Shown here: one piece after another, positions 699-32,173 of the stretch
Layout: each line of letters starts with the position of its first letter
Numbering within the stretch: position 1 is the stretch's first letter
Notes under the pieces: generated by a model
Database searches by the model: none
What the model was told of the DNA's origin: nothing
The model's input: only the letters and a program-made list of their open reading frames with translations
Origin: Planctomycetota bacterium
Lineage (GTDB): Bacteria > Planctomycetota > Phycisphaerae > Phycisphaerales > Phycisphaeraceae
Length of the DNA stretch: 64,000 nucleotides
Assembly: GCA_024276075.1 (NCBI GenBank)
Contig: JAJRXX010000033.1
Coordinates: 1 to 64,000, forward strand
Direction of reading: 5' to 3'
Translations under genes and position numbers: made by a program

Positions 699-2075
699 AT
701 GACCTACACAAAATCCGAACGATCTAGCATGGGCCCGGTGGTCTCGGATTCTGAGAAAGTGGTTGGCCCCGCGCCGCCGTCTCTGAAAGCCAAGATGATC
801 AGTGCGTCAACATGGACGCTCGTTGGGCAGGGTATGGCCCATGCCATACGCCTGGGGTCGAATCTCGTATTAACCAGGTTGTTATTCCCAAAAGCGTTTG
901 GGTTGATGGCGTTGATACAGATATGTGTTCAGGGGTTGGAGATGTTTTCGGATATCGGTCTGCGGGGCAGTATCGTGCACGACGAGCGGGGAGACGACCC
1001 CGCGTATCTGAACACGGCGTGGACGATTCAGGTGATACGAGGGGTTGCGTTGTGGGTATGTGTATGTGTTCTTGCTTGGCCGGTATCGGTATTTTACGAG
1101 GCGCCGGAGCTGCTGTACATGATGCCTGTGGTTGGGCTTTATACGCTGATCCTGGGATTTGGCTCGACTGCACAGTACACGTTGATTCGTCACGTGGAGC
1201 CTGGGAAGAAAGTCACTTTGGACTTGATTAGCCAGGTGGTGGCATTAACGGTGATGATTGTCTGGGCGTTTTTGTATCCGTCGGTATGGGCGTTGGTCGG
1301 TGGGGTGCTGTCTCGTGCGGTGACTACAGCGGTGCTGAGTCATTTTATGATTGCGGATTATCGAAACAGGTTTGGCTTTGATCGTGAAGCGTGGCGCAGC
1401 CTGATTCGGTTCGGAAGGTGGATATTCATCAGCACCGCGTTTACGTTTGTGTTGCTGCAGGGAGACCGCCTAGTGCTTGGAAAGCTGTTGTCGGTCGAGG
1501 AATTCGGCGTCTATTCAATCGCGGTTCTTCTGTCGGGGTTTGTCCTGTTGACGCTGCGGTCACTGTCGAACCAGGTGTTATTCCCGGTTTACAAGCTGCT
1601 GTTTAAGCGTGATCTGGCACATTGTCGGGATAAGATATTTCGGGTGCGATGGGTATTGCTTAGCGCGGCGCTGCCGATCGTATGGACGATGTTGATTTTA
1701 GGTCAGGACATTGTGCGTTTTTTTTACGACGAGCGTTACTGGGAGGCGGGTTGGATGCTGCAGATATTGGCTGCGGGTACAGCGGTGAGTGTGGTGTCGA
1801 TAACGACGGAGCGGGTGCTGCTGGCAAAGGGCGATTCGTTTCGGCACATGCTCCTTCAGGTGATGCGGTCGGTGTTCTTTATCGGGGGTATGTGCATCGG
1901 TGGCGCGTTGGGTGGCGTGGCGGGGTTGTTGATCGGCGTGGGGGTGTCTCGGCTGTTTGAATATTTCGTGACAGTTTTGCTAATACGAAAGTATGGCGTG
2001 TGGTTGCCGAAGCTCGATGGCGTGGCGTTTGCGATGACATCTGTGGCGATCGCGGTTGCGCTGATGCGTCAGTGA
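699..2075 (+). CDS. Wzx-type polysaccharide flippase
   Basis: The protein has 458 residues with a short polar N-terminus (about 35 residues) followed by around a dozen hydrophobic segments. The first part resembles oligosaccharide flippases of the MOP superfamily: an amphipathic start, then a run reading TRLLFPKAFGLMALIQICVQ, which is typical of the Polysacc_synt family. Members flip undecaprenyl-linked repeat units across the inner membrane. It heads the cluster and is followed after 45 bases by a sulfotransferase and then by a polymerase-like membrane protein, which fits a Wzx/Wzy pathway. The ATG at 699 lacks a strong Shine-Dalgarno site. The superfamily is clear; the substrate is unknown. 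Confidence 0.85.
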   Translation: MTYTKSERSSMGPVVSDSEKVVGPAPPSLKAKMISASTWTLVGQGMAHAIRLGSNLVLTRLLFPKAFGLMALIQICVQGLEMFSDIGLRGSIVHDERGDDPAYLNTAWTIQVIRGVALWVCVCVLAWPVSVFYEAPELLYMMPVVGLYTLILGFGSTAQYTLIRHVEPGKKVTLDLISQVVALTVMIVWAFLYPSVWALVGGVLSRAVTTAVLSHFMIADYRNRFGFDREAWRSLIRFGRWIFISTAFTFVLLQGDRLVLGKLLSVEEFGVYSIAVLLSGFVLLTLRSLSNQVLFPVYKLLFKRDLAHCRDKIFRVRWVLLSAALPIVWTMLILGQDIVRFFYDERYWEAGWMLQILAAGTAVSVVSITTERVLLAKGDSFRHMLLQVMRSVFFIGGMCIGGALGGVAGLLIGVGVSRLFEYFVTVLLIRKYGVWLPKLDGVAFAMTSVAIAVALMRQ

Positions 2076-11993: not shown

Positions 11994-12025
11994 AATGCAA
12001 CGAACAAGATAAACGGAGAGCGACG

Positions 12026-12616
12026 ATGGCTGGCGTAATTTGTGCTTCGGCTCAAGCGTATCTGGATGAGATGGGTCGTTTGCTGGGCGGTATCGATTGT
12101 TCGACGATCGATGCGCTGGCGGATTGCCTGCACGACGTTTGGCGTGGTGATCGGCAGGTGTTTGTGTACGGCAACGGGGGCAGCGCGTACACCGCGAGTC
12201 ACTTTGTGACGGACCTGGTGAAGACGGCTGCGGTCGACGGCGTTCGGCGTCTGCGTGCGGTGAGCCTGGTGGACAACTACGGCCTGACGACGGCGATTGG
12301 TAATGACATTAATTACGATCAGACGTTTCAGTTTCCGCTGGAGGCGTACGGGCGTGAGGGTGACTTGGCGATCGCGATCAGCGGATCGGGCAACTCGCCG
12401 AACGTGGTCAACGCGTGTCAATGGGCCCGTGAGCATAAGCTGAAGGTGGCGTGTCTGACGGGTTTTAAGGGTGGGAAGATCGCTGGTATGTGCGACGTGC
12501 ATATCAATATCCCTTCGGACAATTATGGCCTGATCGAGGACCTGCACATGTCGGTGGGTCACATGATTAGTCAGGCGTTTAAGGCGCGTTTGATAGCGGA
12601 GGTGTCTAAGGGATGA
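12026..12616 (+). CDS. gmhA: Phosphoheptose isomerase
   Basis: The 196-residue SIS-domain protein shows VYGNGGSAYTASHFVTDL and AIAISGSGNSPNVV, the two sugar-phosphate-binding loops of GmhA, plus the C-terminal EDLHMSVGHMI helix with metal-site histidines. It converts sedoheptulose 7-phosphate to D-glycero-D-manno-heptose 7-phosphate, the first step of the pathway. In place of the usual H-F-x-x-E stretch this protein has H-F-V-T-D, so one active-site acid is shorter by a methylene group; whether activity changes is unknown. The start has GGAGAG 8 bases upstream. Its stop overlaps the next start (ATGA, 12613). Confidence 0.9.
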   Translation: MAGVICASAQAYLDEMGRLLGGIDCSTIDALADCLHDVWRGDRQVFVYGNGGSAYTASHFVTDLVKTAAVDGVRRLRAVSLVDNYGLTTAIGNDINYDQTFQFPLEAYGREGDLAIAISGSGNSPNVVNACQWAREHKLKVACLTGFKGGKIAGMCDVHINIPSDNYGLIEDLHMSVGHMISQAFKARLIAEVSKG

Positions 12617-13734
12617 AGGTTCTGATTACTGGTGGTGCGGGTTTTATCGGTTCGCATACCGCAGATGCGTTGCTTGGGCGTGGTTATCAGGTGCGTGTGC
12701 TTGATAGCCTGGAGGAGCCTGTGCACCCGGGTCATCGCGTGCCGACGTATTTGGACGAGCGGATCGAGTTTGTGCGGGGCGACGTGCGTGATGAGCAGGT
12801 GATGCTCGAAGCGTTGCGGGGCTGCGACGTGGTTTATCACTTAGCGGCGTTTCAGGATTACCTGCCTACGTTTAGCAGGTTCTTTGATGTGAATGTGACG
12901 TCGACGGCGCTGATCTTCGAGTTGATCGTCCGTGAGAAGCTGCCGGTGAAGAAGGTGATCGTCGCCAGCTCACAGGCGGCGGCTGGTGAGGGTCTGTACC
13001 ACGACGTGGACGGTAAGGCGCTGACGCCTGACATCCGCTCGAACGAGCAGCTCGAACGTGGCGCGTGGGACCTCGAGGCTCCGGAGGGTTTTCGTGGGCC
13101 ATTAAAGTGGCAGCAGACGGGTGAGACGGTATCGAACCCGCAGAACCAATACGGGCTGAGCAAGATTGCCCAAGAGAACGTGGCGCTGCAACTGGGTAGG
13201 CGGTACGGCGTCGCGGCGGTGGCGATGCGGTATTCGATCGTGCAGGGCCCGCGGCAGAGCTTTTACAATGCGTACAGCGGCGCGTGTCGGGTGTTTAGCT
13301 TGAGCTGTCACCTGGATCGTGATCCGATTATCTACGAGGATGGTCAGCAGGTGCGCGACTTTGTGAATATCCAGGACGTGGTGGCGGCGAACCTGGTGGT
13401 GCTCGACGAGGATCGAGCCAATTACGAGATGTTCAACGTCGGTGGTGACAAGCCGATCACGGTGGCGGAATTTGCGAAAGTGGTGGCGGAGGTGTTTGGG
13501 CGTAAGGGTTACGAGCCGACGCCTAGCGGCAAGTATCGGTTCGGTGATACGCGGCATATTTATTCCGACGTGAGCAAGCTCAAGGCGCTTGGCTGGAAGC
13601 CGACCCGGGGTGTGCACGACAGTGTCGAGGCGTACAAGCAGTGGCTATCTGAAGCGGATTCGGTGGCGGATATATTGGACTACTGCAACAAACAGATGGC
13701 GAAGCTGGACGTGGTGCGTGAGGTGAGCCGGTGA
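12613..13734 (+). CDS. SDR-family NAD(P)-dependent nucleotide-sugar epimerase/dehydratase
   Basis: The 373-residue extended SDR starts with the nucleotide-binding motif LITGGAGFIGSH and has YHLAAFQD and VASSQAAAGEG (Ser in the catalytic position). The active-site YGLSK (Y-x3-K) is inside NQYGLSKIAQE. It is longer than GalE-type enzymes, with an insertion around residues 130-175. Placed between gmhA and hddC with four-base overlaps on both sides, it may act on GDP-heptose (for example as an epimerase or reductase/dehydratase partner) rather than on UDP-sugars. The exact reaction is inference. Confidence 0.8.
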   Translation: MKVLITGGAGFIGSHTADALLGRGYQVRVLDSLEEPVHPGHRVPTYLDERIEFVRGDVRDEQVMLEALRGCDVVYHLAAFQDYLPTFSRFFDVNVTSTALIFELIVREKLPVKKVIVASSQAAAGEGLYHDVDGKALTPDIRSNEQLERGAWDLEAPEGFRGPLKWQQTGETVSNPQNQYGLSKIAQENVALQLGRRYGVAAVAMRYSIVQGPRQSFYNAYSGACRVFSLSCHLDRDPIIYEDGQQVRDFVNIQDVVAANLVVLDEDRANYEMFNVGGDKPITVAEFAKVVAEVFGRKGYEPTPSGKYRFGDTRHIYSDVSKLKALGWKPTRGVHDSVEAYKQWLSEADSVADILDYCNKQMAKLDVVREVSR

Positions 13735-14504
13735 CGGCGGCGGCTGACGGCGTGCTTTCGGGAGGTAGCGGTGCCCGTGTGAAGGCGGTGCTGCTGGCGG
13801 CGGGTCTGGGCACGCGGCTTCGGCCGTTGACGGATACGACGCCCAAGTGTCTTGTACCGATCGCGGATCGGCCGCTGTTGGATTATTGGTTTGACGGGCT
13901 AGGTACAGCGGGCGTGCGCGACGTGTTGCTCAATACCCACCACTTGCCGGAACAGGTGCGGAGTTATATCGAAAAAATCAACGCGGCTGATCGGTTCCAT
14001 GTGACCGAGGCGTATGAGCCGAAGCTGCTGGGCTCGGCGGGTACGATCCACGCGAATGCGGCGTGGATGGACGACGCGGACGATGGCTTAATCATTTACG
14101 CGGATAATTTGTCGAGTGTCGATCTGCGTGGGCTGTTGACGTTTCACCGGAGCCACGACGACCCGTTTACGATGTTATTGTTTCATACGCAGTACCCCAG
14201 TTTGTGTGGGATCGCGGAGCTAGACGCGCAGGGGCGGGTGGTCGAGTTCGTTGAGAAGCCAGAGCAACCCCGCAGCGATCTGGCGAACGCGGGTGTGTAC
14301 GTGGTGTCGCGCCAGGCGTACCGAGAGATCGCGGCGATGGACGGGTTTGACCTGGGGTTTGACGTGTTGCCTGGATTTGTCGGGCGCATGCGCGGCTGGG
14401 CGTTTGACGGCTACCACCGTGACATCGGAAGCTACGAGGCGCTGGAGCGGGCAAGGGAAGATGCCCCGCAGGTGTTTGGTAGTTCATTGGAGGCTCGACC
14501 GTGA
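13731..14504 (+). CDS. hddC: Sugar-1-phosphate nucleotidyltransferase, likely HddC
   Basis: A GTG start at 13731 overlaps the previous stop. The first 15 residues are low in conservation, then comes VKAVLLAAGLGTRLRPLTDTTPKCLVPI, the pyrophosphorylase signature split over residues 17-44. It shows IYADNLSS where the metal-binding Asp is expected and VEFVEKPEQP later. At 257 residues it is a short nucleotidyltransferase without a C-terminal beta-helix, as in HddC, which makes GDP-D-glycero-alpha-D-manno-heptose from the 1-phosphate and GTP. The GTP specificity is inferred from the heptose neighbours. Confidence 0.82.
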   Translation: MTAAADGVLSGGSGARVKAVLLAAGLGTRLRPLTDTTPKCLVPIADRPLLDYWFDGLGTAGVRDVLLNTHHLPEQVRSYIEKINAADRFHVTEAYEPKLLGSAGTIHANAAWMDDADDGLIIYADNLSSVDLRGLLTFHRSHDDPFTMLLFHTQYPSLCGIAELDAQGRVVEFVEKPEQPRSDLANAGVYVVSRQAYREIAAMDGFDLGFDVLPGFVGRMRGWAFDGYHRDIGSYEALERAREDAPQVFGSSLEARP

Positions 14505-15097
14505 AGCCGGCGGTATTTCTTGACCGAGACGGTACGCTCATTGAGCAGGTGCATCACCTGACCGATCCGGGTAGTGTGCGTCTTGTAAGCGGCGGTGCGG
14601 ACGCGGTGAAACGGCTGCGTGCGGCGGGCTACGCGTGCGTGGTGGTGACTAACCAATCGGTGATCGGTAGGGGGATGTTGACGGTCGAGGGGCTTGATCG
14701 GGTCCACGCGGTGATGGCGAGGCAGTTGGCGGATCAGGGCACGGTGTTGGACGGGGTGTATTTTTGCCCGGCGGCACCGGTGGGTGGTGACCCGACGGTG
14801 GTCGAGGACCCGGACCGCAAGCCAGGACCGGGCATGCTGCTGCGTGCGGCACAAGAGTTGGAGTTGGACTTGTCGCGGTCGTGGATGATCGGTGACATGA
14901 TCAGTGATATCCTGGCAGGACAAAATGCGGGGTGTATGGGCAGTATCCTCGTGCTGACGGGGTATGGCCAAAAAATTGACAGGTCTCATGAAGCGGTGAC
15001 CGGTGTGGCGGATGATCTGGTAGGGGCGGCGGAGCTTGTGCTGCGGTCGAGTGCGGGTGACGGCATGGCGATTAAAACGAAAGAGCAACAGCGATGA
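14501..15097 (+). CDS. gmhB: D-glycero-D-manno-heptose 1,7-bisphosphate 7-phosphatase
   Basis: The 198-residue HAD-IIIA phosphatase begins at a GTG overlapping hddC by four bases. The catalytic pair is Asp8-x-Asp10 in FLDRDGTLIEQ; VVVTNQS is motif II and DRKPGPGML then MIGDMISDILAGQNAG give motifs III and IV. It removes the 7-phosphate of heptose 1,7-bisphosphate. One feature is odd: GmhB proteins normally carry a zinc-binding loop with several Cys/His just before RKP, but here the loop reads CPAAPVGGDPTVVEDPD, with a single Cys and no His. The zinc site therefore seems lost, as in some HAD relatives. Confidence 0.87.
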   Translation: MKPAVFLDRDGTLIEQVHHLTDPGSVRLVSGGADAVKRLRAAGYACVVVTNQSVIGRGMLTVEGLDRVHAVMARQLADQGTVLDGVYFCPAAPVGGDPTVVEDPDRKPGPGMLLRAAQELELDLSRSWMIGDMISDILAGQNAGCMGSILVLTGYGQKIDRSHEAVTGVADDLVGAAELVLRSSAGDGMAIKTKEQQR

Positions 15098-20784: not shown

Positions 20785-20955
20785 ATGAACGTTGAAAAAA
20801 CGGTTTATGCAGAGGCGGAAACCAAGCTTGATGGAGTTCAAAATCGGGTGTCAATGGGATTGATAAGAGATTGGATGGACTCAATATTGCGGTTTGCCAG
20901 GGTGGGCAGTGAATCTTTATCAGGAATCGCGATAATCATTTGGGTGGTTGCGTAG
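20785..20955 (+). CDS. Possible small protein, 56 residues
   Basis: A short frame from the ATG at 20785 to a TAG at 20953-20955 encodes 56 residues. A charged first half (MNVEKTVYAEAETKLDG) is followed by a hydrophobic C-terminus (SGIAIIIWVVA) that could sit in a membrane. Its stop overlaps the TTG start of the next gene by eight bases, the arrangement seen for coupled genes in this cluster. No family is recognised, and no clear ribosome-binding site is seen. It may be chance. Confidence 0.3.
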   Translation: MNVEKTVYAEAETKLDGVQNRVSMGLIRDWMDSILRFARVGSESLSGIAIIIWVVA

Positions 20956-21934
20956 AATCGAACTGGAGAAATTGATCAAGGTGCGCAAAACAACTGTCCA
21001 ATCTGTTTGTGAAGCCACAGGGGCGAGTGAGGGACGTTTGCTTAGCCGTTTGCGAGATCATTTACGTGCGGTGGTCCTGCTGGGGGGGGCGGTTCGACCG
21101 ACGTTGCTTTCTAACTCGATCGGCCGATCTGTGTTTGATCTGCCTGTGAGTCAAGAGGACTCGATTCTTGACCTGTGGTGCAAGCAGACGCAGGAATTAC
21201 TCGATCGGGTGGGTTTGGATCACCTTCCGTTGCGGGTGGTGATCGACCGAGATTCGATCCCGCCTGCGGTTCGTGAATCGTCCGGAGGAGCGGTGTTGAC
21301 CCGTGTTGAGGTGGATGAGACAAAATTCCGAGGCACGGGGGGTGTGCTGCGTGAGTTGTGCAGTGATTACGGTGATAAGGATTTGATTTTGGTAGCGAGC
21401 GGCGCGCAAGTGCTTATGTATTCTTTGATTGAACTGGTTATGTCACTTGCTCAGGCGAAGAGTGATGTAAGCATTGTTTCACACATTGATGGATCGCCTA
21501 GCGGCTTGATGCTTGTGAGGTGCGGTGTTTTGGGCTTGGTGCCGGCCATTGGATTTATAGATATGAAAGAGCAGGCACTACCCATTATCGCTGATAAACA
21601 CCGAGTCACCGTGGTAGAGCGAGCGGAATCGACAGGGCTGACGATCCGGACGCTATATAATTACGTATCCATGTTAAGGAAGCGCCATCGGAGCGAATCT
21701 GCTGCCTACGATATGGCGGATGAGTTTTTGGAAGATTGGCAGCCCGCATTCGGGATTATTGAACCCGGAGCCGAGGTAGACCCGACGGCTCGGGTGCATG
21801 ATTCCGTGGTGTTGAGCGGTGGACGAGTAGAGCGTGGTGCGACGCTGGTCCGCTCGCTGGTGTGCCCTGGTGGTGTGGCTGGCAAGAATAAAATTATCGT
21901 AGACCAAATCGTTGGTCCAAACGTTCGGATTTGA
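20948..21934 (+). CDS. Nucleotidyltransferase-like protein, degenerate, with short beta-helix
   Basis: The earliest start is a TTG at 20948; an in-frame TAA lies 15 bases upstream. The 328-residue product has a layout like an NDP-sugar pyrophosphorylase: a Rossmann-like region (LRAVVLLGGAVRPTLL, VLRELCSDYGDKDLILVASGA) and a C-terminal hexapeptide run (GAEVDPTARVHDSVVLSGGRVERGA). The usual GxGTRLxPLT-x-PK signature is absent, replaced by GGAVRPTLLSNSIGRS, so transferase activity is doubtful. A non-catalytic, regulatory or sugar-binding role just before the exosortase genes is possible. Only the C-terminal beta-helix is reasonably secure. Confidence 0.55.
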   Translation: MRRIELEKLIKVRKTTVQSVCEATGASEGRLLSRLRDHLRAVVLLGGAVRPTLLSNSIGRSVFDLPVSQEDSILDLWCKQTQELLDRVGLDHLPLRVVIDRDSIPPAVRESSGGAVLTRVEVDETKFRGTGGVLRELCSDYGDKDLILVASGAQVLMYSLIELVMSLAQAKSDVSIVSHIDGSPSGLMLVRCGVLGLVPAIGFIDMKEQALPIIADKHRVTVVERAESTGLTIRTLYNYVSMLRKRHRSESAAYDMADEFLEDWQPAFGIIEPGAEVDPTARVHDSVVLSGGRVERGATLVRSLVCPGGVAGKNKIIVDQIVGPNVRI

Positions 21935-21998: not shown

Positions 21999-22880
21999 AT
22001 GAATATCCCCAAATCACTAGCGCGCAATGGGTGGGGTTGGTCGCATGTGGTCGGTGCGTTGGTTCTGCTGACGATAGGGGTGTTGTCAAGACGTGACGCG
22101 TGGTTGGATATTTTTGAAATCGCTTCTCATGACGAAGAGGCCAGTCATATATTCCTTGTGCCCATCGTGTTTGCGTGGCTGGTATGGGTCCGCCGGGGTC
22201 GGCTGCGGCAGTGTCGACCGGTGGGCATGTTTGTGGGCCCCATTCTGGTAGGGTTGGGTTGGGTGGTATCGTCGGTTGGATACAACAACGCGTTACAGTC
22301 GTTTTGGCATGGCGGGGCGTTGCTGATTGTATTGGGATGTCTGATATCGGTGACGGGTGTGCAGGTGGTTTGGCGATTCTTTCCGGCGTTTCTTGCGTTG
22401 GTTTTCCTGATACCGATCCCCGGGATGGCGCGTCAGGCGATAGCGTTGCCGCTGCAATCGGTGACGGCTATCGTGACCCAATCGCTTCTTGAAGTGATGG
22501 GTATTTTGGTTTCACGATCGGGGAACGTTTTGCAGGTTAACGGGGTCGACATTGGCATCGCCGAGGCGTGCAACGGTTTGCGTATGGTCTTTGCGTTAGC
22601 GTTGGTGTCGTTTGCTTTTGCGTTTGGCTCGCCGTTGACGATGTTTACCCGGGTCATTGTATTGGCAGCCAGCCCGGTGTCGGCGATCTTGTGTAACGTG
22701 ATCCGGTTGGTGCCTACGGTTTATCTTTATGGATACGCCAGCATCGAGAGCGGCGATCGTTTTCACTCCGCTAGCGGCTGGATCATGTTGGTGGTTGCAT
22801 TTTTGCTTTTGATCGGGATTATCCGCGTGCTGCGTTGGGCGTTTGTCCCGGTTACAAGATACACGTTGGCGTATGACTAA
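21999..22880 (+). CDS. Exosortase (transpeptidase for PEP-CTERM sorting)
   Basis: The 293-residue integral membrane protein has about eight hydrophobic segments and the exosortase catalytic set: Cys191 in IAEACNGLRMVFAL, Arg236 in CNVIRLVPTVY and His256 in FHSASGW. Exosortases cleave PEP-CTERM signals of secreted proteins and probably attach them to a surface polymer. The enzyme is encoded in the polysaccharide locus, as is usual. Its stop overlaps the next gene by eight bases. It is close in length to XrtA-like proteins without the fused EpsI domain, which here is separate. Confidence 0.92.
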   Translation: MNIPKSLARNGWGWSHVVGALVLLTIGVLSRRDAWLDIFEIASHDEEASHIFLVPIVFAWLVWVRRGRLRQCRPVGMFVGPILVGLGWVVSSVGYNNALQSFWHGGALLIVLGCLISVTGVQVVWRFFPAFLALVFLIPIPGMARQAIALPLQSVTAIVTQSLLEVMGILVSRSGNVLQVNGVDIGIAEACNGLRMVFALALVSFAFAFGSPLTMFTRVIVLAASPVSAILCNVIRLVPTVYLYGYASIESGDRFHSASGWIMLVVAFLLLIGIIRVLRWAFVPVTRYTLAYD

Positions 22881-23574
22881 TAAGAACGTTCCAACTTCGA
22901 GGAAGGCGGTCTGGCAGGTGTTGCCGGTGGCAGTCACCGCGGTGCTGTTGATTGGTTTGTTGATAGAGAACGTATCGTACTCCTCCCCCAGCGATGCGGA
23001 GCCCTACCACGATCGGGTGCGTGCTGTGATCGAATCGGTTCCCTATCAGATCGGTGATTGGTTCGGGTCTGACGTGGAGGTTCCGCCGGCGGCGATAAAG
23101 TTATTACGGCCGAATGCGATATGCAGCAGGCGATATCAGAACAATCGGACCGGGGATTCCGTAGAGTTATTAATTGTTCAGACGCGTGACGCACGGGATA
23201 TGGGCGGTCACTATCCGCCGGTGTGCTATCCGGCCCACGGTTGGGTGCAGAAGTCGGTGCAGGCGGTGCAATGGGAGGTACGGTCCCAGACCATTCCCGG
23301 TCAGGAGTATACGTTTACTCAATCGTTACCGGGTCGGCTGTCGACGATCATCGTCGACAACGTCTTGATTCTGCCGAACGGGGAGATGATTCGTGATATC
23401 GAAGGTGTGCGTGCGATCGCGGCTGATTACCGGATGCATTTCTACGGTGCGGGTCAGTTACAGTTGGTATTTAGCCAGAGCATCTCTGCGGAGGAACGCC
23501 GGGCGATAATCGACGTTTTTCTTGAGGCGGTATTGCCGGTTCTCGAAGCGGTGCGATCTGGGGTAGAGCGATGA
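22873..23574 (+). CDS. epsI: Exosortase-associated EpsI-like protein (DUF3485)
   Basis: The ATG at 22873 overlaps the exosortase stop, whereas a TTG at 22843 would extend it only upstream. The 233-residue product has one N-terminal membrane segment (VLPVAVTAVLLIGLLI) and then a periplasmic domain with GHYPPVCYPAHGWVQ. This Cys-Tyr-Pro-x-x-Gly-Trp motif is the hallmark of EpsI. EpsI is either fused to or encoded next to exosortase and is needed for exopolysaccharide production in some bacteria; its biochemical role is not settled. The next gene overlaps its end by four bases (ATGA, 23571). Confidence 0.87.
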   Translation: MTNKNVPTSRKAVWQVLPVAVTAVLLIGLLIENVSYSSPSDAEPYHDRVRAVIESVPYQIGDWFGSDVEVPPAAIKLLRPNAICSRRYQNNRTGDSVELLIVQTRDARDMGGHYPPVCYPAHGWVQKSVQAVQWEVRSQTIPGQEYTFTQSLPGRLSTIIVDNVLILPNGEMIRDIEGVRAIAADYRMHFYGAGQLQLVFSQSISAEERRAIIDVFLEAVLPVLEAVRSGVER

Positions 23575-26036
23575 GCAATTCTGAATCCTACGAACTTGAA
23601 AAAGTAAACGCTGCGCCGATGGTTCTCCCGATGGGCATGGAGGATCAGCAGCCGGAGCACGAGACGATATCGCCTTTGCGCAGGATTCACCAGATGTTAG
23701 CGGGTCGATATATCTGGGCGATCCTGCTGAGCGTGTTAGGTATGAGCTTGGGCGGTGTCGGTGCCTACATGTCCGTGGAGCTAACCTATCAGAGCCGTGG
23801 GATAATCCGGATCAGGCCCAGCATGCCAAAAATTTTGTATCAGACCGAGGCGAGCGCGGTCATGCCCATGTTCGACTCGTTTATCATGGATCAGGTTGAG
23901 TTGATGAGGAGTCAGCGCATTCTTGACATGGCTATGCAGAGCGATGGATGGAAGTCGTTTGGCCACAGCTTTACGGATGAGGCGCGTGCTGAATTCAGCA
24001 GCCATTATAGCGTCAAGCGTACCCGTCAAAGTAATCTCGTCATATTGAGTTATAATTCGGCTAATCCGCGTGAAGCGATGAAGGCGATCAACCTGGTGAT
24101 CGATGCGTACATGCGGATATTTGGCGAGCGCGACGCACAGGAAGAGGCACAGAGGCTGCGTGTGTTGGAAGAGCGGCGGACCGCGTTGACCGCTCAGCTA
24201 TCGAGTATCCGGGATCGGATATTTAGGATCGCCAACGAGTATGGTTCCGATGCGCTTCAGAATCTTTATCTGTATAAGCTGACGCAGCTGAATCAGCTTG
24301 ACCAAGCGATGACACAGACGGGTATGGACCTCGCGGCTGTGGGCATGTCGACCGAAGCGCAGGGTAAGGGGAGTAATAAAGTCAAAAGCCCGGTGGATAT
24401 GACTGTAGAGGAGATCGCTGGAGTCGATCAGCAGATGTCAGTCTTGCTGAATCAGGAGGCTGCGTTTGAGGCTGACTTGCGACGATTGCAGGGACGATAC
24501 GGAGAGAATCATCGGTATGTCATTGATCAAAAATCGCAACTCGTGACGGCTCAACAGATGATTGAAGATTATGCTGCGAAGTATCGTGAGCGTCAGCCGA
24601 CGCTCAGCCAGACCGTTACAACGGGTACGGTAACGTCGACGGGGTCCGTACTGACAGCCAATCAGCTTCTCGAAAAGATGCGACATCTCCAATCGTTGTA
24701 CGAAAAGGCTCAGGCAGAAACGACGGACCTGGGTCGGAAGATGTTGCAGATAAATAGTCTTAAAACGGATGCTGCATTGACGGAAGGTCGGTTGGCGACG
24801 ACAAAAAATCGGATTGATACGTTGAACGTTGAATCCTCCGTCATCGGGGGTCGGATCGAGGTATTTAGCCGAGCGACGAAGCCGTTTCGGCCTATCAATG
24901 CGGGTAAACAGAAGCAGTTTGCGGTGCTGGGCGGGATGGTGGGAGGGATGGGCGGATTTGGCATTATCCTCATGTTTGGTGCGTTAGACCGTCGGCTACG
25001 CAGTTCGGATGAAGCCAGCGCGAGCATCGGTCGATTTAGATTGCTTGGTATGCTCCCTGATTTGCCTGAGGATATGAGCGATCCGGAGGTAGCGACGATT
25101 GCGGGTAGGTGCGTTCACCACATTCGTACGCTTTTACAGTTGGTGTCGGGTAAGAAAAACCGTCAGGTTTTCGCTATAACCGGGACGGCTGTCGGGTCTG
25201 GCAAGACAAGTCTTTCGCTTGCGTTGGGCTTATCTTTTGCGTCATCGGGTTCCAAGACCTTGTTGATCGATTGCGATTTGGCTAGCGGCGGGCTCACGAC
25301 TAGGTTAGAAACGATTATCAGCAGGCGAGTTGGTGAGATTCTCCGTCGGCGCGGCTTGGTGACCACGGAGCAACTAGAGCAGGCGCTTTGGGCTGCGGAC
25401 ACATCTGGGAAGCTTGTCGGTGAGACCTTGGTTAACATGGGGATTCTATCTGAGGCGGATGTGTCCGAAGCGCTTGCGTTGCAGTCGGAAGTCCCGATAG
25501 GTCTTTTAGATGCGGTTGCGGGTGAGGACCTGAAGTCGTGTATCACGAACGCGGGGATTGATCGATTAGATATTCTGCCCGTTGGCGGTGCGAAAGCGCA
25601 CGATATGAGCCGTATATCGCCGTCGTCTTTGAGTCGTGTGATCGAAGAGGCTCGTGGTTATTACGATGTGATTTTACAAGACACGGGTCCGGTCCCCGGC
25701 GGAGTGGAGACGTCTATTGTGACTGCACAGGCGGATGGTGTTGTGCTGGTTGTTTCTCACGGTGATCAGAGATCGCAGATCAAGAGTGCAATAGATTTTC
25801 TCGGCTCGATCGACGCGAATGTCGAAGGCGTCGTATTTAACCGCGCCAGCACCCGTGACATCGTCGGCTCGGCCATGTCTTCGTCGCTTAGCGGTGATGC
25901 AGCGTCTTCTGAGAGCCGTGATGAGGGCGAAGCCCGCGAAACACCTACAAGCCTGCGGTCGAAGCGGTTTGGGCCGGTCGCGAGAGCGGTTGCGAGCCAT
26001 TCGTGGGTTCTTGAGGGCGAAGAGAAGACAACTTAG
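23571..26036 (+). CDS. Wzc-like polysaccharide co-polymerase and P-loop protein with an MshEN-like insert
   Basis: This 821-residue protein has a Wzz-type layout: membrane segment near residues 46-66, long coiled periplasmic part (to about 440), second membrane segment (about 448-470) and a cytoplasmic P-loop domain. Walker A is GTAVGSGKTS with Lys545; Walker A' is LLIDCDLASGG with Asp567 and Asp569; a later YYDVILQDTGPV is the Walker B equivalent. Two things are unusual. Between Walker A' and Walker B (about residues 583-654) lies an insert with two repeats of the pattern G-E-x-L-x3-G-(L/I)-x5-(L/V)-x2-A-L, as in MshEN/GspE N-terminal domains. And the C-terminus, which in BY-kinases is tyrosine-rich, has no tyrosine. 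It would control chain length and export; kinase activity is uncertain. Confidence 0.8.
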   Translation: MSNSESYELEKVNAAPMVLPMGMEDQQPEHETISPLRRIHQMLAGRYIWAILLSVLGMSLGGVGAYMSVELTYQSRGIIRIRPSMPKILYQTEASAVMPMFDSFIMDQVELMRSQRILDMAMQSDGWKSFGHSFTDEARAEFSSHYSVKRTRQSNLVILSYNSANPREAMKAINLVIDAYMRIFGERDAQEEAQRLRVLEERRTALTAQLSSIRDRIFRIANEYGSDALQNLYLYKLTQLNQLDQAMTQTGMDLAAVGMSTEAQGKGSNKVKSPVDMTVEEIAGVDQQMSVLLNQEAAFEADLRRLQGRYGENHRYVIDQKSQLVTAQQMIEDYAAKYRERQPTLSQTVTTGTVTSTGSVLTANQLLEKMRHLQSLYEKAQAETTDLGRKMLQINSLKTDAALTEGRLATTKNRIDTLNVESSVIGGRIEVFSRATKPFRPINAGKQKQFAVLGGMVGGMGGFGIILMFGALDRRLRSSDEASASIGRFRLLGMLPDLPEDMSDPEVATIAGRCVHHIRTLLQLVSGKKNRQVFAITGTAVGSGKTSLSLALGLSFASSGSKTLLIDCDLASGGLTTRLETIISRRVGEILRRRGLVTTEQLEQALWAADTSGKLVGETLVNMGILSEADVSEALALQSEVPIGLLDAVAGEDLKSCITNAGIDRLDILPVGGAKAHDMSRISPSSLSRVIEEARGYYDVILQDTGPVPGGVETSIVTAQADGVVLVVSHGDQRSQIKSAIDFLGSIDANVEGVVFNRASTRDIVGSAMSSSLSGDAASSESRDEGEARETPTSLRSKRFGPVARAVASHSWVLEGEEKTT

Positions 26037-26557: not shown

Positions 26558-27982
26558 ATGATCAGTGGTGTTAAAAGCGAGCAGTCAGATCGTGCAGATT
26601 ATGTTACGGTGTGGGGCCTGACGCCGATCGAGTTGCATGATCGTTTTTGGGCGTCGCGTGGCGTTCAAGTGGTTCGCCCAGATGAGCCGTCGGAAATTGT
26701 CGAAGGCGCGGAATTATTCCTATTGATGAGGCCACGGCTGCTGATGATTTTTCGGCTACGGGTGTTGGTGGAGCAGTTGAGTTGGGTGGACCCCAAGGTC
26801 ATGTGGATTCGTTTATGCGATAAACGAGAACGTGGTTATCGAGAGAAAGCGGTTACGGACGGCGAGGGCCGATTGATCCGATTTGAGCGCATTTACAGTA
26901 GTTCAGATTCTCGCTTGGCCCGCGTTGCGTTGACTTCTGATCCTGACGTTGCCCGGTTGTGGCAGTTGGCGCCTGATGCAAAAACAGGGTGGCGGCGTTT
27001 GCGTGCCCAGATTCCGTCGGATTTGCGTATTGCGGAATCGGTATCAGGGCGCACCTACGACTGCAATGCGAAATCCGAAACGATGCAGTTTGTTCGGGAC
27101 CTGATCGAGACTTGGAATCGTCCCGACGCGACGATCGATCGCGTCAGAAAGATCGAGCAGGGGGTTTGGGGTGACTTGGAAGCTAAAATTGACAAGGGTA
27201 CAAATTTTATCGGATCGGCTTGGATCGGCGCGGGTCGGGAGCTCACAGCCGGTACGGATGTGATTGGCCCGGCGGTCCTGTGGGACGATTCGGGCGCTCG
27301 CCCGGTGGCCGAGGCTGTGCGGTGGAACGAGATCGAACCGGGGGAGGCTTTGTCGCGTCCTGTTCGGCTTCGGAAGCAATCCGATTTTGAGTTGCAGATC
27401 AAGCGTCTTTTTGATGTTCTGTTCGGGTCTTTTGCTCTGCTTCTGGTTCTTCCGATATTCCCGCTGATCATGTTTTTGATTTGGTTGGAAGACGGCCGGC
27501 CGTTTTTCTTTGCACATCGTCGGGAGACTGTTGGTGGCCGAGAGTTTCCTTGCCTAAAGTTCCGCTCGATGCGGAAGGATGCGGAGCAAGTCAAAGCCCA
27601 GCTCGCCAAGGAAAACAAAGCCGATGGCCCGCAGTTTTTTGTTCCTAACGATCCCAGGCTCACGCGTATCGGCGCGTTTATTCGTAAAACCTATCTGGAT
27701 GAATTGCCACAGTTGTTTAATGTGATTGCCGGCGACATGTCGATTGTGGGCCCTCGGCCAAGCCCTCACGCGGAGAATCAATATAGTCCTACTTGGCGTG
27801 AGGCAAGGCTGAGTGTTCGGCCGGGGATCACGGGTCTTTGGCAGGTCAAGCGCACGCGTAAAAAAGGTCTGGACTTTCAAGAATGGATACAATTTGACAT
27901 TGAGTATGTAGAGAACAAGAGTTTTTTCCTGGATATGTGGATTGTCTGGAAGACCATCGTACTCATTTTTAGCCGGAAGTAA
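26558..27982 (+). CDS. Undecaprenyl-phosphate sugar phosphotransferase (priming glycosyltransferase)
   Basis: The last 190 residues of this 474-residue protein are a bacterial sugar transferase domain. It opens with a membrane segment (residues about 288-312, LFGSFALLLVLPIFPLIMFLIWL), then CLKFRSMRKDAE, DELPQLFNVIAGDMSIVGPRP and RPGITGLWQVKR. It transfers a sugar-phosphate from a nucleotide sugar to undecaprenyl phosphate and so starts repeat-unit assembly. The N-terminal 270 residues are unusual: instead of the four extra membrane segments of WbaP-type enzymes there is a soluble part, ending in a short beta-helix-like stretch (KIDKGTNFIGSAWIGAGRELTAG and onward). Six bases separate it from the TPR gene. 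Confidence 0.85.
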   Translation: MISGVKSEQSDRADYVTVWGLTPIELHDRFWASRGVQVVRPDEPSEIVEGAELFLLMRPRLLMIFRLRVLVEQLSWVDPKVMWIRLCDKRERGYREKAVTDGEGRLIRFERIYSSSDSRLARVALTSDPDVARLWQLAPDAKTGWRRLRAQIPSDLRIAESVSGRTYDCNAKSETMQFVRDLIETWNRPDATIDRVRKIEQGVWGDLEAKIDKGTNFIGSAWIGAGRELTAGTDVIGPAVLWDDSGARPVAEAVRWNEIEPGEALSRPVRLRKQSDFELQIKRLFDVLFGSFALLLVLPIFPLIMFLIWLEDGRPFFFAHRRETVGGREFPCLKFRSMRKDAEQVKAQLAKENKADGPQFFVPNDPRLTRIGAFIRKTYLDELPQLFNVIAGDMSIVGPRPSPHAENQYSPTWREARLSVRPGITGLWQVKRTRKKGLDFQEWIQFDIEYVENKSFFLDMWIVWKTIVLIFSRK

Positions 27983-27988
27983 CGAGAT

Positions 27989-30900
27989 ATGGCAATACGA
28001 GTTAAGAGACGTCGGCGCTTGGTTCTGTTGATGGTGATCACGGCGTCGTTGTTCGCATTGGGGGGCGGGGTGTTCGCGTACCGCCGACACCAACTGCGTC
28101 AAGAAGAATTGAGTAATCGCGCCGAGGGCGTGTCGGCTTTTGAGGCGGGCCGATATTTTGATGCTATGCACAGCCTGGGTATGTATCTGGGCCGTCATCC
28201 CGAAGACGTAGAGATAACGTTTAAATATGCCCAGGCCAGGCTAGAGGTGAAGGAGCCTGGCGGTGGTCATCTTGTTCAGGCGGTCGGTGTGCTGCGGCGG
28301 CTGTTGTACATGGAGCCTGATCATCCAACCGCGAAGCGTATGCTGCTTGATCTGTATGTTAAGACGAATTTTTATACAGAATCATTGGACTTGGCGGAGG
28401 AGTTTCTAAGAGAAGACCCGTACGATTTTGAGGCGATGAGGGCGAAAGTGGACGCGCTGCTTAATCTGCGGAAGTTTCGTGAGGTGGTGGAATATGCGGA
28501 TCGTCTAGCTGCTGCTGCGGCAACGGGTGGTGATTCTGAAAAGTGGGATAAGGTTCAGATCGAATCGGTGCGTGCAAAGGCGCTATCGCTTGGCGCGATG
28601 AGTCGGTTTGAAGAGGCGCTGCCGTATGCACAGCAGTACAGCGAATCCGTGTCGTCTGACGTCGATGGTCAGATGCTGGTATTTCACCTTTTAAGCCAGA
28701 CACACCGCTCGGCTGAAGAGATCGTGTCAAGGGCCGAATCGCTGCGTGCATCGTATCCGGATGATCCACAGTTTGAGTTGTTGCAGGCGGTCGCGTATCG
28801 CTTGGCCAATGATGATCTTCAGGCTAAACGATGGCTGCGTATTGTCGTTGACCGCAAACCGACAGACGAGCTATTGCTTCAGAGACTGGTGTCAGAGCTT
28901 GATGTTTCAAGGATGTTTCAGGAGGCGATTGAGGTGCTTGGGGCTGTTTCAGATCAGCTCGAAAGCGTGTGGCTACAGCGTCTGTTAGCCAACCGTCTGA
29001 TTCAAGCTGGGCGTCAGGCGGAGACACTTGAATTTATCAAGAAATTAGAACTTGATCCCAAGTCGGCGAATTCGGATAGTGAATTGTTGGGCCTGTGGGC
29101 GATGGTGCTGTATGAGATGGGTGACGGTGAAAAGGCGGCGCCGATTTTAGAGGCATTGAAATCACGGGTTAATAAGCGCACGGCAGAGGCGTGGGAAATG
29201 TTTCTTCGTAAAGTCGTGGCGGGGGACGATAAGGAAGACCTGAAGGCGATTATCGAAGCCTGCCAACAGGCTCTTTCTCGTCATCCCAACGGTCCCTATT
29301 TTTATTACGCGATGGGGCGGGCGTACAAGATGCTGGGGGATACCAGCCTGGCGATGGAGGCTTGGCGTAACGCGGCGCAGCTTGCGCCGTCGTGGCCGAC
29401 GCCATTGATGGAGGTGGCGCGGGCGTTGATCGAGATTAATCAACGCGGGCACGCGGTATCGATTGCAGAGGAGGCTCTGAAGCGATCCCCAGGCAACGTG
29501 CCTGCTGCGGTGACGGTAGCGGTGGCTGCCGCGGCGAACATCGACCAGATTCCAGATTATAAGCTTGAAGAGCTGCTGGTGTTTGTCAACAAGATCCAAA
29601 AGGTGGCACCGGGTGAAAGGCAGACGTTGCCGATTAAGATCATGCTGCTGTCGCGTACAGGACGTTCAGACGAAGCTAAATCGGCGCTGCAATCTTTGTT
29701 GGCGGATGATGAGTTTTTGCCAGATGAATCGACGTTGCTGCGCCTGGCCGTTGCGAGTCGGCAAGCGGGGCTTGGGCTTGAACAGGTGATTCTTGAGCGG
29801 TGTCAAGCGGTGTATGGGATGACGCCTCAGATAGCGTATGAGCGTGCGGTTCGTCATATGGAGAAGGGGCAGCCGGAGGAAGGTCTGAAGCTACTCGAGT
29901 CGGGGGCGAGTCAAAGCGGTACTGAGAATGAAGGGGTGGTGTGGGCGATCGCCAAGGCGCGATACCTGGAGTTGATTAATGACCCGCGTGCGTCGGTTGC
30001 GTGGAAGGATGTCGGTGAAGGGAGGCAGAACGATTTACGCGTTCAGCGATCGGTCTTGACCTCTAGGGCGGCATGGAGTGATCGAGAATTCATTGACCGT
30101 ACGATCGAGCGGGTACGTGTGTTGACGTCTGAGAAGAGCACCGCGTGGCGTATTGCCAGAGCGAGATGGACCTTGCAGGGCTCGCCCAGCGAACTGGAGC
30201 TCACGCGGACAAGCGAGATGCTCAACAGCGTCGTCCAGATTGCTCCGTTCATGGCGGAGCCGCGGCTGCTGTTAGCGCAGGTATATGAAAAGTTGAATAA
30301 CGATTCCGGTGCAATCGAGCAGGTTGCTCGGGTATCTCAACTGAGACCTGATTCTGACGAGATCAAGCTTGAATTGGCGCGTTTGTACCATCTTCAGGGG
30401 GATGTTCATCAGGCACGAGCCATGATAGATGAAGTGGTGTCGGGTAAGGGTGTGTTGAATCCTGCGCTTACAGAACGTGCGGCTGAGTTGCTTGCGCAGC
30501 TGGGTGATACGGATCGGGCGATTGAGATTCTTGATACGCAGAGCATGGGCAACAGCCTGCTGTTGGCAAGGCTTTACCTGCGGGACAACAAGATTGAAAA
30601 GGTGCAGGCGGCATGCCGTGTGCTTTTAGAGACACCGACGCTGGAGATTGTGCAGTTTGTTGCTGAATTTTATGCGTCACAGGGGCAAACCGAACGGGCT
30701 GAGGAGGTGTTGTCGTTGTTGGATGGTATGGAGTTGGCCCCGGGTGTACGCGAGGTGGTTTTGAGCGATTATTACGCTCGGGCTGTAGGTGTTGAGCGTG
30801 CGATCGAGCAATTAAAAGAGGCGAAAGTCTCATCGCCGGGGAACGTGGTTGTGTGGAGGAGGCTTTTCATTTATCAGTTGGAACTGGGTCGGGGTGAAGA

Positions 30901-32173
30901 GGCGGTGGCAACGGCTAGGGAAGGTTTGTCACATGTCCCGGAAGATGAGTCAATGGCGTATCTTGTCGATAGAGCCGATTTGATAATCGAATCATCGGAG
31001 AATCCACTGCTTCGGCCTATTATCTATGCTCTGTTGGGCGATCGTCAGAGGCGGGCGTCTGCGGAGGAGGTTTTAAGGCTTGTTTCCGAAGCGGACGCGG
31101 CTGAGAAACCGATTCAAGAGGTGGTCGTCTCGCTTCGTAAGCTAGCGGGTATGCATACGAAATTTTTGCCGTTGCAAAATCTTGCGGCACAGGTTTCGAT
31201 CGCGGCGAGGGATTATGAGGATGCGATCGCGATCAGCATGCGTGTGATGAATACGTTTCCACAGGCGGTAGAACCGGCAAGATTTGCGTCTGAGGCTCTC
31301 GCTGCGGTTGGTCGATGGGATGAAGCGTTATCTATTGCACAGGAGTGGCGTCGTCGTGCGGGGGGGCGGTCCGTGGGCCCCGAACTGATAATTGTGGAGG
31401 CGAAGCTCCGCCTAGGCGACATCCGTGGTGCATCGGAGATGCTCGAGCCATTGCTGGAGCCGGCGTTGGAGCAGCCGGACACCTACGCGCAGCTGATCAT
31501 TCAGTATGCTCGGACACGGATCGCGTCTGAAGAAACGCAGCGTGCGTACGATTTGTTGGTCCCTATGCTGGACCGATCGCAGATGTGGCGGTCGGCGTGG
31601 ATCGAACTGGCAACGAATACAATATCCGACGGTGAAACAAGCGCAAGGTGGCTAGACGAGGTCTACAGGCATATTCCGTCCGACAGCCATAATGAAAAAG
31701 CGGCGCTGGCACAGAGATGGAGCGTCTTATCTGATCGTGTAAAGAATTCGGCATACCGACAACGGGCCAGGCAATTAATCAATGATGTGGTTGGGGTCCC
31801 TGGTGCTACCGCAAGATGTTGGCTTATTCACGCGGTTTTGGCTGAGAGCGACGGGAATCTTGCGGATGCGGAGGCGAGCTACCGCAAGACGTTAGAGTTG
31901 GACCCTAGTGTGCATGTGGCTATGAACAACTTGGCGCTGTTGATCGCAAACAAAAAAGACGGAGATATGGATCAGGCGTTGAAGATGGCTCAGGGTGCGG
32001 TGGATGCTGTGCCTCGCAGCGCGAATTATCACGATACGTTGGCATCGATTTACGTAAAAATCAAGGATTACGATGCGGCAATTGAAAATATTGATTCAGC
32101 GATTCGTCTGGAGCCTGGGAATCCTGTTTGGGTGAAACGCCGGGCGGAGATACTTGCACAGTCGGGGCAGTAA
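27989..32173 (+). CDS. Very large TPR-repeat protein of the exosortase/polysaccharide locus
   Basis: The 1394-residue protein has a basic start and one membrane segment (residues about 11-30, RLVLLMVITASLFALGGGVFAY), so the rest probably lies in the periplasm. Nearly all of it is built of helical TPR-type repeats. Examples are AMGRAYKMLGDTSLAMEAW, ELARLYHLQGDVHQARAMI and the C-terminal MNNLALLIANKKDG with HDTLASIYVKIKDYDAAIEN. TPR proteins of this kind accompany PEP-CTERM/exosortase systems (PrsT-like) and alginate/cellulose export systems, where they act as scaffolds between inner and outer membrane. It is longer than most of these. No enzymatic domain is seen. Confidence 0.8.
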   Translation: MAIRVKRRRRLVLLMVITASLFALGGGVFAYRRHQLRQEELSNRAEGVSAFEAGRYFDAMHSLGMYLGRHPEDVEITFKYAQARLEVKEPGGGHLVQAVGVLRRLLYMEPDHPTAKRMLLDLYVKTNFYTESLDLAEEFLREDPYDFEAMRAKVDALLNLRKFREVVEYADRLAAAAATGGDSEKWDKVQIESVRAKALSLGAMSRFEEALPYAQQYSESVSSDVDGQMLVFHLLSQTHRSAEEIVSRAESLRASYPDDPQFELLQAVAYRLANDDLQAKRWLRIVVDRKPTDELLLQRLVSELDVSRMFQEAIEVLGAVSDQLESVWLQRLLANRLIQAGRQAETLEFIKKLELDPKSANSDSELLGLWAMVLYEMGDGEKAAPILEALKSRVNKRTAEAWEMFLRKVVAGDDKEDLKAIIEACQQALSRHPNGPYFYYAMGRAYKMLGDTSLAMEAWRNAAQLAPSWPTPLMEVARALIEINQRGHAVSIAEEALKRSPGNVPAAVTVAVAAAANIDQIPDYKLEELLVFVNKIQKVAPGERQTLPIKIMLLSRTGRSDEAKSALQSLLADDEFLPDESTLLRLAVASRQAGLGLEQVILERCQAVYGMTPQIAYERAVRHMEKGQPEEGLKLLESGASQSGTENEGVVWAIAKARYLELINDPRASVAWKDVGEGRQNDLRVQRSVLTSRAAWSDREFIDRTIERVRVLTSEKSTAWRIARARWTLQGSPSELELTRTSEMLNSVVQIAPFMAEPRLLLAQVYEKLNNDSGAIEQVARVSQLRPDSDEIKLELARLYHLQGDVHQARAMIDEVVSGKGVLNPALTERAAELLAQLGDTDRAIEILDTQSMGNSLLLARLYLRDNKIEKVQAACRVLLETPTLEIVQFVAEFYASQGQTERAEEVLSLLDGMELAPGVREVVLSDYYARAVGVERAIEQLKEAKVSSPGNVVVWRRLFIYQLELGRGEEAVATAREGLSHVPEDESMAYLVDRADLIIESSENPLLRPIIYALLGDRQRRASAEEVLRLVSEADAAEKPIQEVVVSLRKLAGMHTKFLPLQNLAAQVSIAARDYEDAIAISMRVMNTFPQAVEPARFASEALAAVGRWDEALSIAQEWRRRAGGRSVGPELIIVEAKLRLGDIRGASEMLEPLLEPALEQPDTYAQLIIQYARTRIASEETQRAYDLLVPMLDRSQMWRSAWIELATNTISDGETSARWLDEVYRHIPSDSHNEKAALAQRWSVLSDRVKNSAYRQRARQLINDVVGVPGATARCWLIHAVLAESDGNLADAEASYRKTLELDPSVHVAMNNLALLIANKKDGDMDQALKMAQGAVDAVPRSANYHDTLASIYVKIKDYDAAIENIDSAIRLEPGNPVWVKRRAEILAQSGQ

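Follow-up and report, generated by a model that had tools for sequence, protein, structure and literature searches.

The window analysed here is a 64,000-nucleotide stretch of a Planctomycetota bacterium genome (assembly GCA_024276075.1, contig JAJRXX010000033.1). It contains an exopolysaccharide (EPS) locus in which a Wzc-like protein of 821 aa carries an MshEN-type domain, of the kind that binds cyclic di-GMP (c-di-GMP) in secretion ATPases, inside its P-loop module. The genes of the block lie in the order WecG-type glycosyltransferase, uncharacterized conserved protein (at 20948), exosortase, EpsI-family protein, Wzc-like protein, sugar-phosphate transferase and tetratricopeptide repeat (TPR) protein, and the ATG of the Wzc-like open reading frame (ORF; 23571-26036) overlaps the stop codon of the upstream EpsI-family gene. 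A synteny comparison showed the exosortase/EPS block to be kept around most of 40 named loci, with the insert present or absent. The 821-aa protein is the Wzc-like co-polymerase of a Wzx/Wzy-type, exosortase-associated EPS locus.

The protein has the layout of a polysaccharide co-polymerase of the PCP-2a type, with two transmembrane (TM) segments flanking a periplasmic region and a cytoplasmic P-loop domain of the bacterial tyrosine kinase (BY-kinase) fold. The NCBIfam models TIGR01007, TIGR03018 and TIGR03007 all matched it below their cut-offs, the last one over residues 46-497. An AlphaFold2 model of residues 484-775, with 40 orthologs as input, reached a mean predicted local distance difference test score (pLDDT) of 88, and its P-loop core aligned with Wzc (3la6) over 228 residues at 2.5 Å (VIA Z 28.8). 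The Walker A, A' and B motifs of BY-kinases were all present, with G544, K545, D567, D569 and D704 invariant in 68 orthologs. A first-pass annotation, made from the sequence alone, had correctly placed Walker A' at Asp567/Asp569 and the Walker B equivalent at about residue 700 (the Walker B aspartate is Asp704); it had also treated the host as a bacterial tyrosine kinase, which probably does not hold. The ExxRxxR oligomerization motif and the arginine of Walker A' are hallmarks of BY-kinases (general knowledge; see also PMC12220298). At the site of the former the protein has R513-H516-R519 (R-x-x-H-x-x-R) and the family H-x-x-H-x-x-R; no arginine was found after Walker A', where Ala571 stands here and Val in most orthologs; and the tail (residues 757-821) contains no tyrosine. 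Judging from these residues, the host protein is probably not an active tyrosine kinase. Since the hallmarks are also missing in insert-free orthologs, their loss predates the insert or is independent of it. For its part, the genome's other Wzc-like protein (G000:C40; L002, L007) has a tail with four tyrosines and an ExxRxxR motif (ETFRQVR), and no clear Walker A was seen in it, the region GSQAKCGIS being devoid of the usual GKT.

Between Walker A' and Walker B, the first-pass annotation had singled out about 70 residues that looked out of place. Such a stretch does exist, although it spans only about 60 residues (582-642), and residues 643-673 (IGLLDAVAGEDLKSCI...LDILPVGG) are ordinary BY-kinase sequence. 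The two copies of the G-E-x-L pattern described there were recovered at residues 586-609 and 615-638, with the repeats themselves beginning at residues 588 and 617, and the resulting layout of 24+5+24 residues is identical to that of MshE (PMC5013675). NF053729, a 53-residue model of the MshE-related c-di-GMP motif, matched residues 586-638 over its full length (1-53/53; E 8e-14) with 51.1 bits, its curated cut-off being 38 bits. Similarly, a phmmer search of the insert segment against PDB sequences returned GSPII/MshEN proteins only, with Thermus thermophilus PilF at the top (2.8e-12) and Vibrio cholerae MshE at 7e-9. The resemblance is not due to chance. The Pfam model PF05157 (MshEN) was not matched in the insert when either the whole protein or the insert was scanned. 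In the MshE-type ATPases of the same genome, PF05157 begins past the ligand motifs (residue 60 on); it misses the insert because it models MshEN_C, which the insert lacks. The insert is MshEN_N only, the ligand-binding half without MshEN_C, and the idea of an MshEN-like domain within the P-loop module stands with that correction. The isolated MshEN_N half of MshE binds c-di-GMP with a dissociation constant (KD) of 0.35 µM (PMC5013675).

The predicted structure was in agreement with the profile matches. In the model of residues 484-775, the insert (pLDDT about 92) forms a separate four-helix bundle (helices 587-593, 599-612, 616-622 and 628-638) on a stem of two-residue beta strands, 583-584 being paired with 642-643. 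When the insert was modelled alone (pLDDT 83), its 13 best PDB matches in Foldseek were all MshE or PilF GSPII chains. Because the insert has only 65 residues, its Foldseek E-values are weak (best 0.03), and rank, probability and sequence identity were weighted instead. Superposition of the insert-only model on MshE with bound c-di-GMP (5htl) gave a VIA Z of 10.2 over 58 residues at 2.2 Å, compared with 7.6 for the first unrelated fold. That fold, the C-terminus of fumarase C (Z 7.6 or less), was also the best weak Pfam match to the insert (E 0.006); it shares a helical arrangement and was rejected as a relative. The first-pass annotation had named a predicted structure lacking a separate helical insert as grounds for refutation, and the outcome of that check speaks for an insert. 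The MshEN-type identity of the insert is well supported. The coordinates of the protein, its parts and its neighbours are given in the table.

Table. Features of the EPS locus and of the 821-aa Wzc-like protein (positions in the window)
Feature	Position	Strand	Basis
Wzx-type flippase, same EPS locus	699..2075	+	PF13440, PF01943
Exosortase (XrtA-like)	21999..22880	+	TIGR02602 above cut-off; synteny
EpsI-family protein	22843..23574	+	TIGR02914, 39.7 bits vs cut-off 42.8; synteny
Wzc-like polysaccharide co-polymerase (PCP-2a type), 821 aa	23571..26036	+	ORF; NCBIfam matches below cut-off; Foldseek/VIA to Wzc, CapB
TM segment 1, predicted, residues about 42-69	23694..23777	+	Hydropathy
TM segment 2, predicted, residues about 450-472	24918..24986	+	Hydropathy
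Walker A GTAVGSGKT, residues 538-546	25182..25208	+	Sequence; G544, K545 invariant in 68 orthologs
Walker A' LLIDCD, residues 564-569, lacking the usual BY-kinase Arg	25260..25277	+	Sequence, orthologs
Whole insert, residues about 582-642, on two-strand stem	25314..25496	+	AlphaFold2 model; missing in insert-free orthologs
MshE-type motif I RVGEILRRRGLVTTEQLEQALWAA, residues 586-609, last-position Gln replaced by Ala	25326..25397	+	NF053729; position counts
Spacer DTSGK, 5 residues, 610-614	25398..25412	+	Length equal to MshE spacer (PMC5013675)
MshE-type motif II LVGETLVNMGILSEADVSEALALQ, residues 615-638, Leu for Arg at position 1, Gln kept	25413..25484	+	NF053729; position counts
Return to BY-kinase fold, from residue 643, with Walker B VILQDTGP (700-707, Asp704)	25497..25895	+	TIGR01007, 644-761; VIA-align
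C-terminal tail, residues 757-821, no tyrosine	25839..26033	+	Residue count
Polyprenyl-phosphate sugar-1-phosphate transferase	26558..27982	+	PF02397; synteny
Large TPR protein (PrsT-like)	27989..32173	+	TIGR02917 below cut-off; synteny

Homologs of the protein turned up in 44 of the 51 genomes searched in the same family. Nearly all named relatives come from metagenome-assembled genomes of Planctomycetota, chiefly Phycisphaerae, and two records are labelled Hydrogenedentes. A profile of kinase plus insert matched 51 of 301 genomes of the order, with full-length matches confined to two families. A phylum-wide sample of 392 genomes yielded 11 matching genomes, almost only from two families of the same order. 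The insertion site is identical in all insert-bearing orthologs, and insert-free orthologs have a loop of 5-10 residues there; NF053729 also matched 15 of 40 orthologs. The search of other planctomycete Wzc-like proteins suggested by the first-pass annotation was fruitful, and the insert is not an assembly artefact, since it recurs at one and the same site in orthologs from many separate assemblies. When the insert columns were left out of the tree, three changes were needed to explain presence and absence (quick search, midpoint root). This distribution is compatible with one gain in Phycisphaerae-type Planctomycetota and losses in two clades.

Several relatives depart from this picture. A second paralogous Wzc-like group in genomes of the same family (L111, L112, L115-L119, L121 and L122) holds at the same site only a short piece similar to motif II, e.g., LDQVMLEMGYLSAND, which looks like a bundle deprived of its first half. 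The two Candidatus Hydrogenedentes/Hydrogenedentota loci (L041 and L073) also have the protein itself, with its insert degenerate, and lack a sugar-phosphate transferase neighbour; either horizontal transfer or a mis-binned contig may account for them. In two planctomycete homologs (L064 and L088), the insertion site is occupied by a different insert, of about 92 residues, in which no MshE motif is clear. Elsewhere in the source genome (G000:C43:900-7000; L133), two adjoining GspE/PilB-type ATPases contain MshEN, and their N-terminal motifs, the closest own-genome relatives of the insert, are a possible source of it.

Conservation of the ligand-contact positions separated the insert-bearing orthologs into two groups. 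Among the 44 that were scored, 22 (the 821-aa protein included) kept 10-11 of 12 contact positions, while the other 22 kept 2-7, and the core-packing score fell only from 11.0 in the motif-bearing group to 9.6 in the degenerate one. Gly3 of both motifs and Leu21 and Gln24 of motif II were present in 22/22 members of the motif-bearing group, whereas Gly3 and Leu21 were among the most variable positions of the 22 degenerate sequences. This pattern suggests selection for the ligand in the motif-bearing group and its release in the degenerate group.

The 821-aa protein agrees with the extended consensus (R/K/L)LG...Q at 11 of the 12 contact positions, so that the full set is not present in both motifs; this weakens the case for a fully canonical binding site and leaves the identity of the domain untouched. 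The earlier remark that the consensus Arg and Gln are partly kept proved accurate: Leu615 replaces Arg at position 1 of motif II, the motif I Gln (position 609) is Ala and is the sole missing contact, and the motif II Gln is retained. The accompanying concern that binding may be weak or lost was too pessimistic with respect to the Arg, since Leu occupies motif II position 1 in the tightest binder known, PilF GSPII-B (Leu196; KD, 6 nM), and a Lys-to-Leu change at the equivalent motif I position of PilF tightens binding further, to 2 nM (PMC11731258). Replacement of the motif I Gln of PilF by Glu (Q190E) gave a KD of 0.95 µM for c-di-GMP (PMC11731258), and 9gl5, which was among our PDB matches, is the crystal structure of the PilF Gln-to-Glu mutant with c-di-GMP. 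Taken singly, Leu at motif II position 1 and the loss of the motif I Gln amide both have precedents among published c-di-GMP binders.

We favour, with moderate confidence, the reading that the insert is a c-di-GMP sensor, acquired once, that modulates the ATPase ring of the Wzx/Wzy co-polymerase and tunes EPS production; direct sensing by the co-polymerase is plausible from the sequence. An MshEN_N bundle of the type II/IV secretion ATPase kind would have entered once into the loop following Walker A' of the P-loop domain, and in the 821-aa protein and about half of the insert-bearing orthologs it most likely still binds c-di-GMP, lacking one of the Gln contacts of MshE. Ligand binding would probably move the Walker A' loop, because the two-strand stem sits a few residues past the catalytic Asp pair. 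Such a shift might alter how the co-polymerase turns over nucleotide or assembles its ring, the direction of the effect being equally conjectural, and might thereby couple EPS polymerization or export to the level of c-di-GMP. The ligand is very probably made in the source organism, since its genome gave 8 GGDEF, 3 EAL and 10 PilZ matches (9 of the last over the cut-off).

Several observations weigh against direct sensing. All of the 22 motif-bearing orthologs have the motif II Gln, whereas 21 lack that of motif I, with Ala or Ser in its place in 20. Three of the four motifs I read from MshE-type ATPases of the same genome keep this Gln; because the orthologs share the loss and the own-genome ATPases mostly do not, it is a trait of the inserted family and not of the genome. 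We know of no binder that combines both deviations of the insert. A related domain, GSPII-A, shows no binding although its motif I is near-perfect, and a return to the consensus residues did not suffice (PMC12002112). In addition, the border of the 'canonical' class (no ortholog scored 16/20) was drawn on overlapping positions, so the contrast between the groups is partly circular; the contact scores (10-11 vs 2-7) nonetheless do not overlap. Lastly, the contact residues are gone from half of the insert-bearing relatives and the insert itself from two clades, so the co-polymerase can work without it.

These points bear on what else the insert might be. It could be an MshEN fossil that is folded, maybe stiffening the loop or the ring, and no longer binds nucleotide in the 821-aa protein. 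The replacement of the motif I Gln and the motif II Arg would fit such a state, as would the many relatives with a folded but degenerate insert, those with none, and the paralogs with only a motif-II-like scrap. However, 11 of the 12 contact positions fit the extended consensus, Gly3, Leu21 and Gln24 of motif II are invariant across 22 deeply diverged orthologs, and the variability of Gly3 and Leu21 once the motif decays is unexpected for a purely structural bundle; a fossil is thus rather unlikely, though it is the alternative to which we give most weight. The notion that the segment is normal BY-kinase sequence and no insert at all is already refuted: nothing was found in its favour, TIGR01007 matches the region only as two pieces, insert-free orthologs bridge it with the short loop, and the separate bundle of the model is identified as MshEN-type by the curated profile and the PDB matches.

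Alternatively, the bundle might serve to dock a partner protein, for example a PilZ protein or some other component of the EPS system. In Xanthomonas citri, PilB uses the same fold to bind PilZ (7lkm/7lko were among the structural matches), the genome encodes several PilZ proteins, and degenerate inserts that keep their fold would fit; conservation, however, tracks the nucleotide-contact positions, and the insert is about 40% identical to the c-di-GMP-binding MshE/PilF versus 12-14% to X. citri PilB, which makes docking improbable. We give even less weight to the binding of another cyclic dinucleotide (e.g., 3',3'-cyclic GMP-AMP [cGAMP]), or of c-di-GMP asymmetrically, as an explanation for the near-fixed loss of the motif I Gln. 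The asymmetry between Ala or Ser24 of motif I (20/22) and Gln24 of motif II (22/22), together with the Gln kept in three of four own-genome ATPase motifs, would agree with it, and MshEN does bind cGAMP weakly (PMC5013675). The motif I Gln of MshE, however, contacts ribose and phosphate and not the base, and its loss would have no obvious effect on base specificity (PMC5013675).

Two further features of the locus were noted. Pfam gave no match for the conserved protein of the block at 20948-21934 (+), whose C-terminus is faintly similar to mannose-1-phosphate guanylyltransferase and which adjoins the exosortase in most related loci. At 11004-15097 (+), consecutive genes for a GHMP kinase, a SIS-domain protein, a nucleotidyltransferase and a HAD phosphatase resemble a GDP-heptose supply pathway, which would feed the EPS.

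If the preferred reading is true, a c-di-GMP sensor in the nucleotide-binding module of a co-polymerase would be a direct control route for Wzx/Wzy EPS, in a phylum with little-studied signalling. Synthase-type EPS pathways are switched directly by c-di-GMP, whereas post-translational control of Wzx/Wzy-dependent ones is incompletely understood (PMC12802240). Within one conserved gene block, the clade offers a rare series in which a single domain was inserted and then variously retained, degraded with its fold intact, or lost, and this series makes the function testable by comparison. More tentatively, with doubt outweighing belief, these proteins may form a co-polymerase class whose ATPase ring is gated by c-di-GMP directly, in place of the tyrosine-phosphorylation cycle of Wzc, with the lineages lacking the ligand site or the domain as natural controls.

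The insert shares with V. cholerae MshEN_N (5htl) the 53-residue 24+5+24 motif, the four-helix bundle, about 40% identity and the same contact positions. In MshE, however, the domain is the N terminus of a secretion ATPase, while here it lies inside another P-loop domain without MshEN_C and has Ala for the motif I Gln and Leu for the motif II Arg. T. thermophilus PilF GSPII-B (8pdk, 8pfa, 9gl5) has the same Leu and a near-identical predicted fold, but keeps both Gln residues and belongs to an N-terminal tandem GSPII array of a pilus ATPase. The host resembles the BY-kinase PCP-2 proteins Escherichia coli Wzc and Staphylococcus aureus CapAB in its two TM segments, cytoplasmic P-loop domain (VIA Z about 29) and EPS/capsule locus, and differs from them in the insert and in lacking the Tyr tail, ExxRxxR and the Walker A' Arg. 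Similarly, the XrtA-associated EPS system (TIGR03018 kinase, TIGR03007 chain-length protein, PrsT) has the same exosortase, EpsI, sugar-phosphate transferase and TPR neighbours, with weak matches throughout; here the kinase-like and chain-length parts are fused, and the kinase, chain-length and PrsT models matched below their cut-offs.

In the openly licensed literature searched, we found no report of MshEN fused with a tyrosine kinase, Wzc, a co-polymerase or a polysaccharide protein by search, and the main text of Wang et al. (PMC5013675) gives MshEN fusions with REC, HD-GYP, CheA, CheX, cyclase and Ser/Thr kinase and none with a co-polymerase. Both parts are of known kinds; what is new relative to that literature is an MshEN_N module within the nucleotide-binding domain of a co-polymerase. 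In function, the nearest precedent is E. coli NfrB, an EPS glycosyltransferase activated by c-di-GMP through a C-terminal MshEN (PMC8669469). There too, MshEN is fused to an EPS-making protein, which it controls, but NfrB is a synthase with the domain appended at its C terminus, whereas here MshEN_N lies inside the ATPase domain of a Wzx/Wzy-type co-polymerase.

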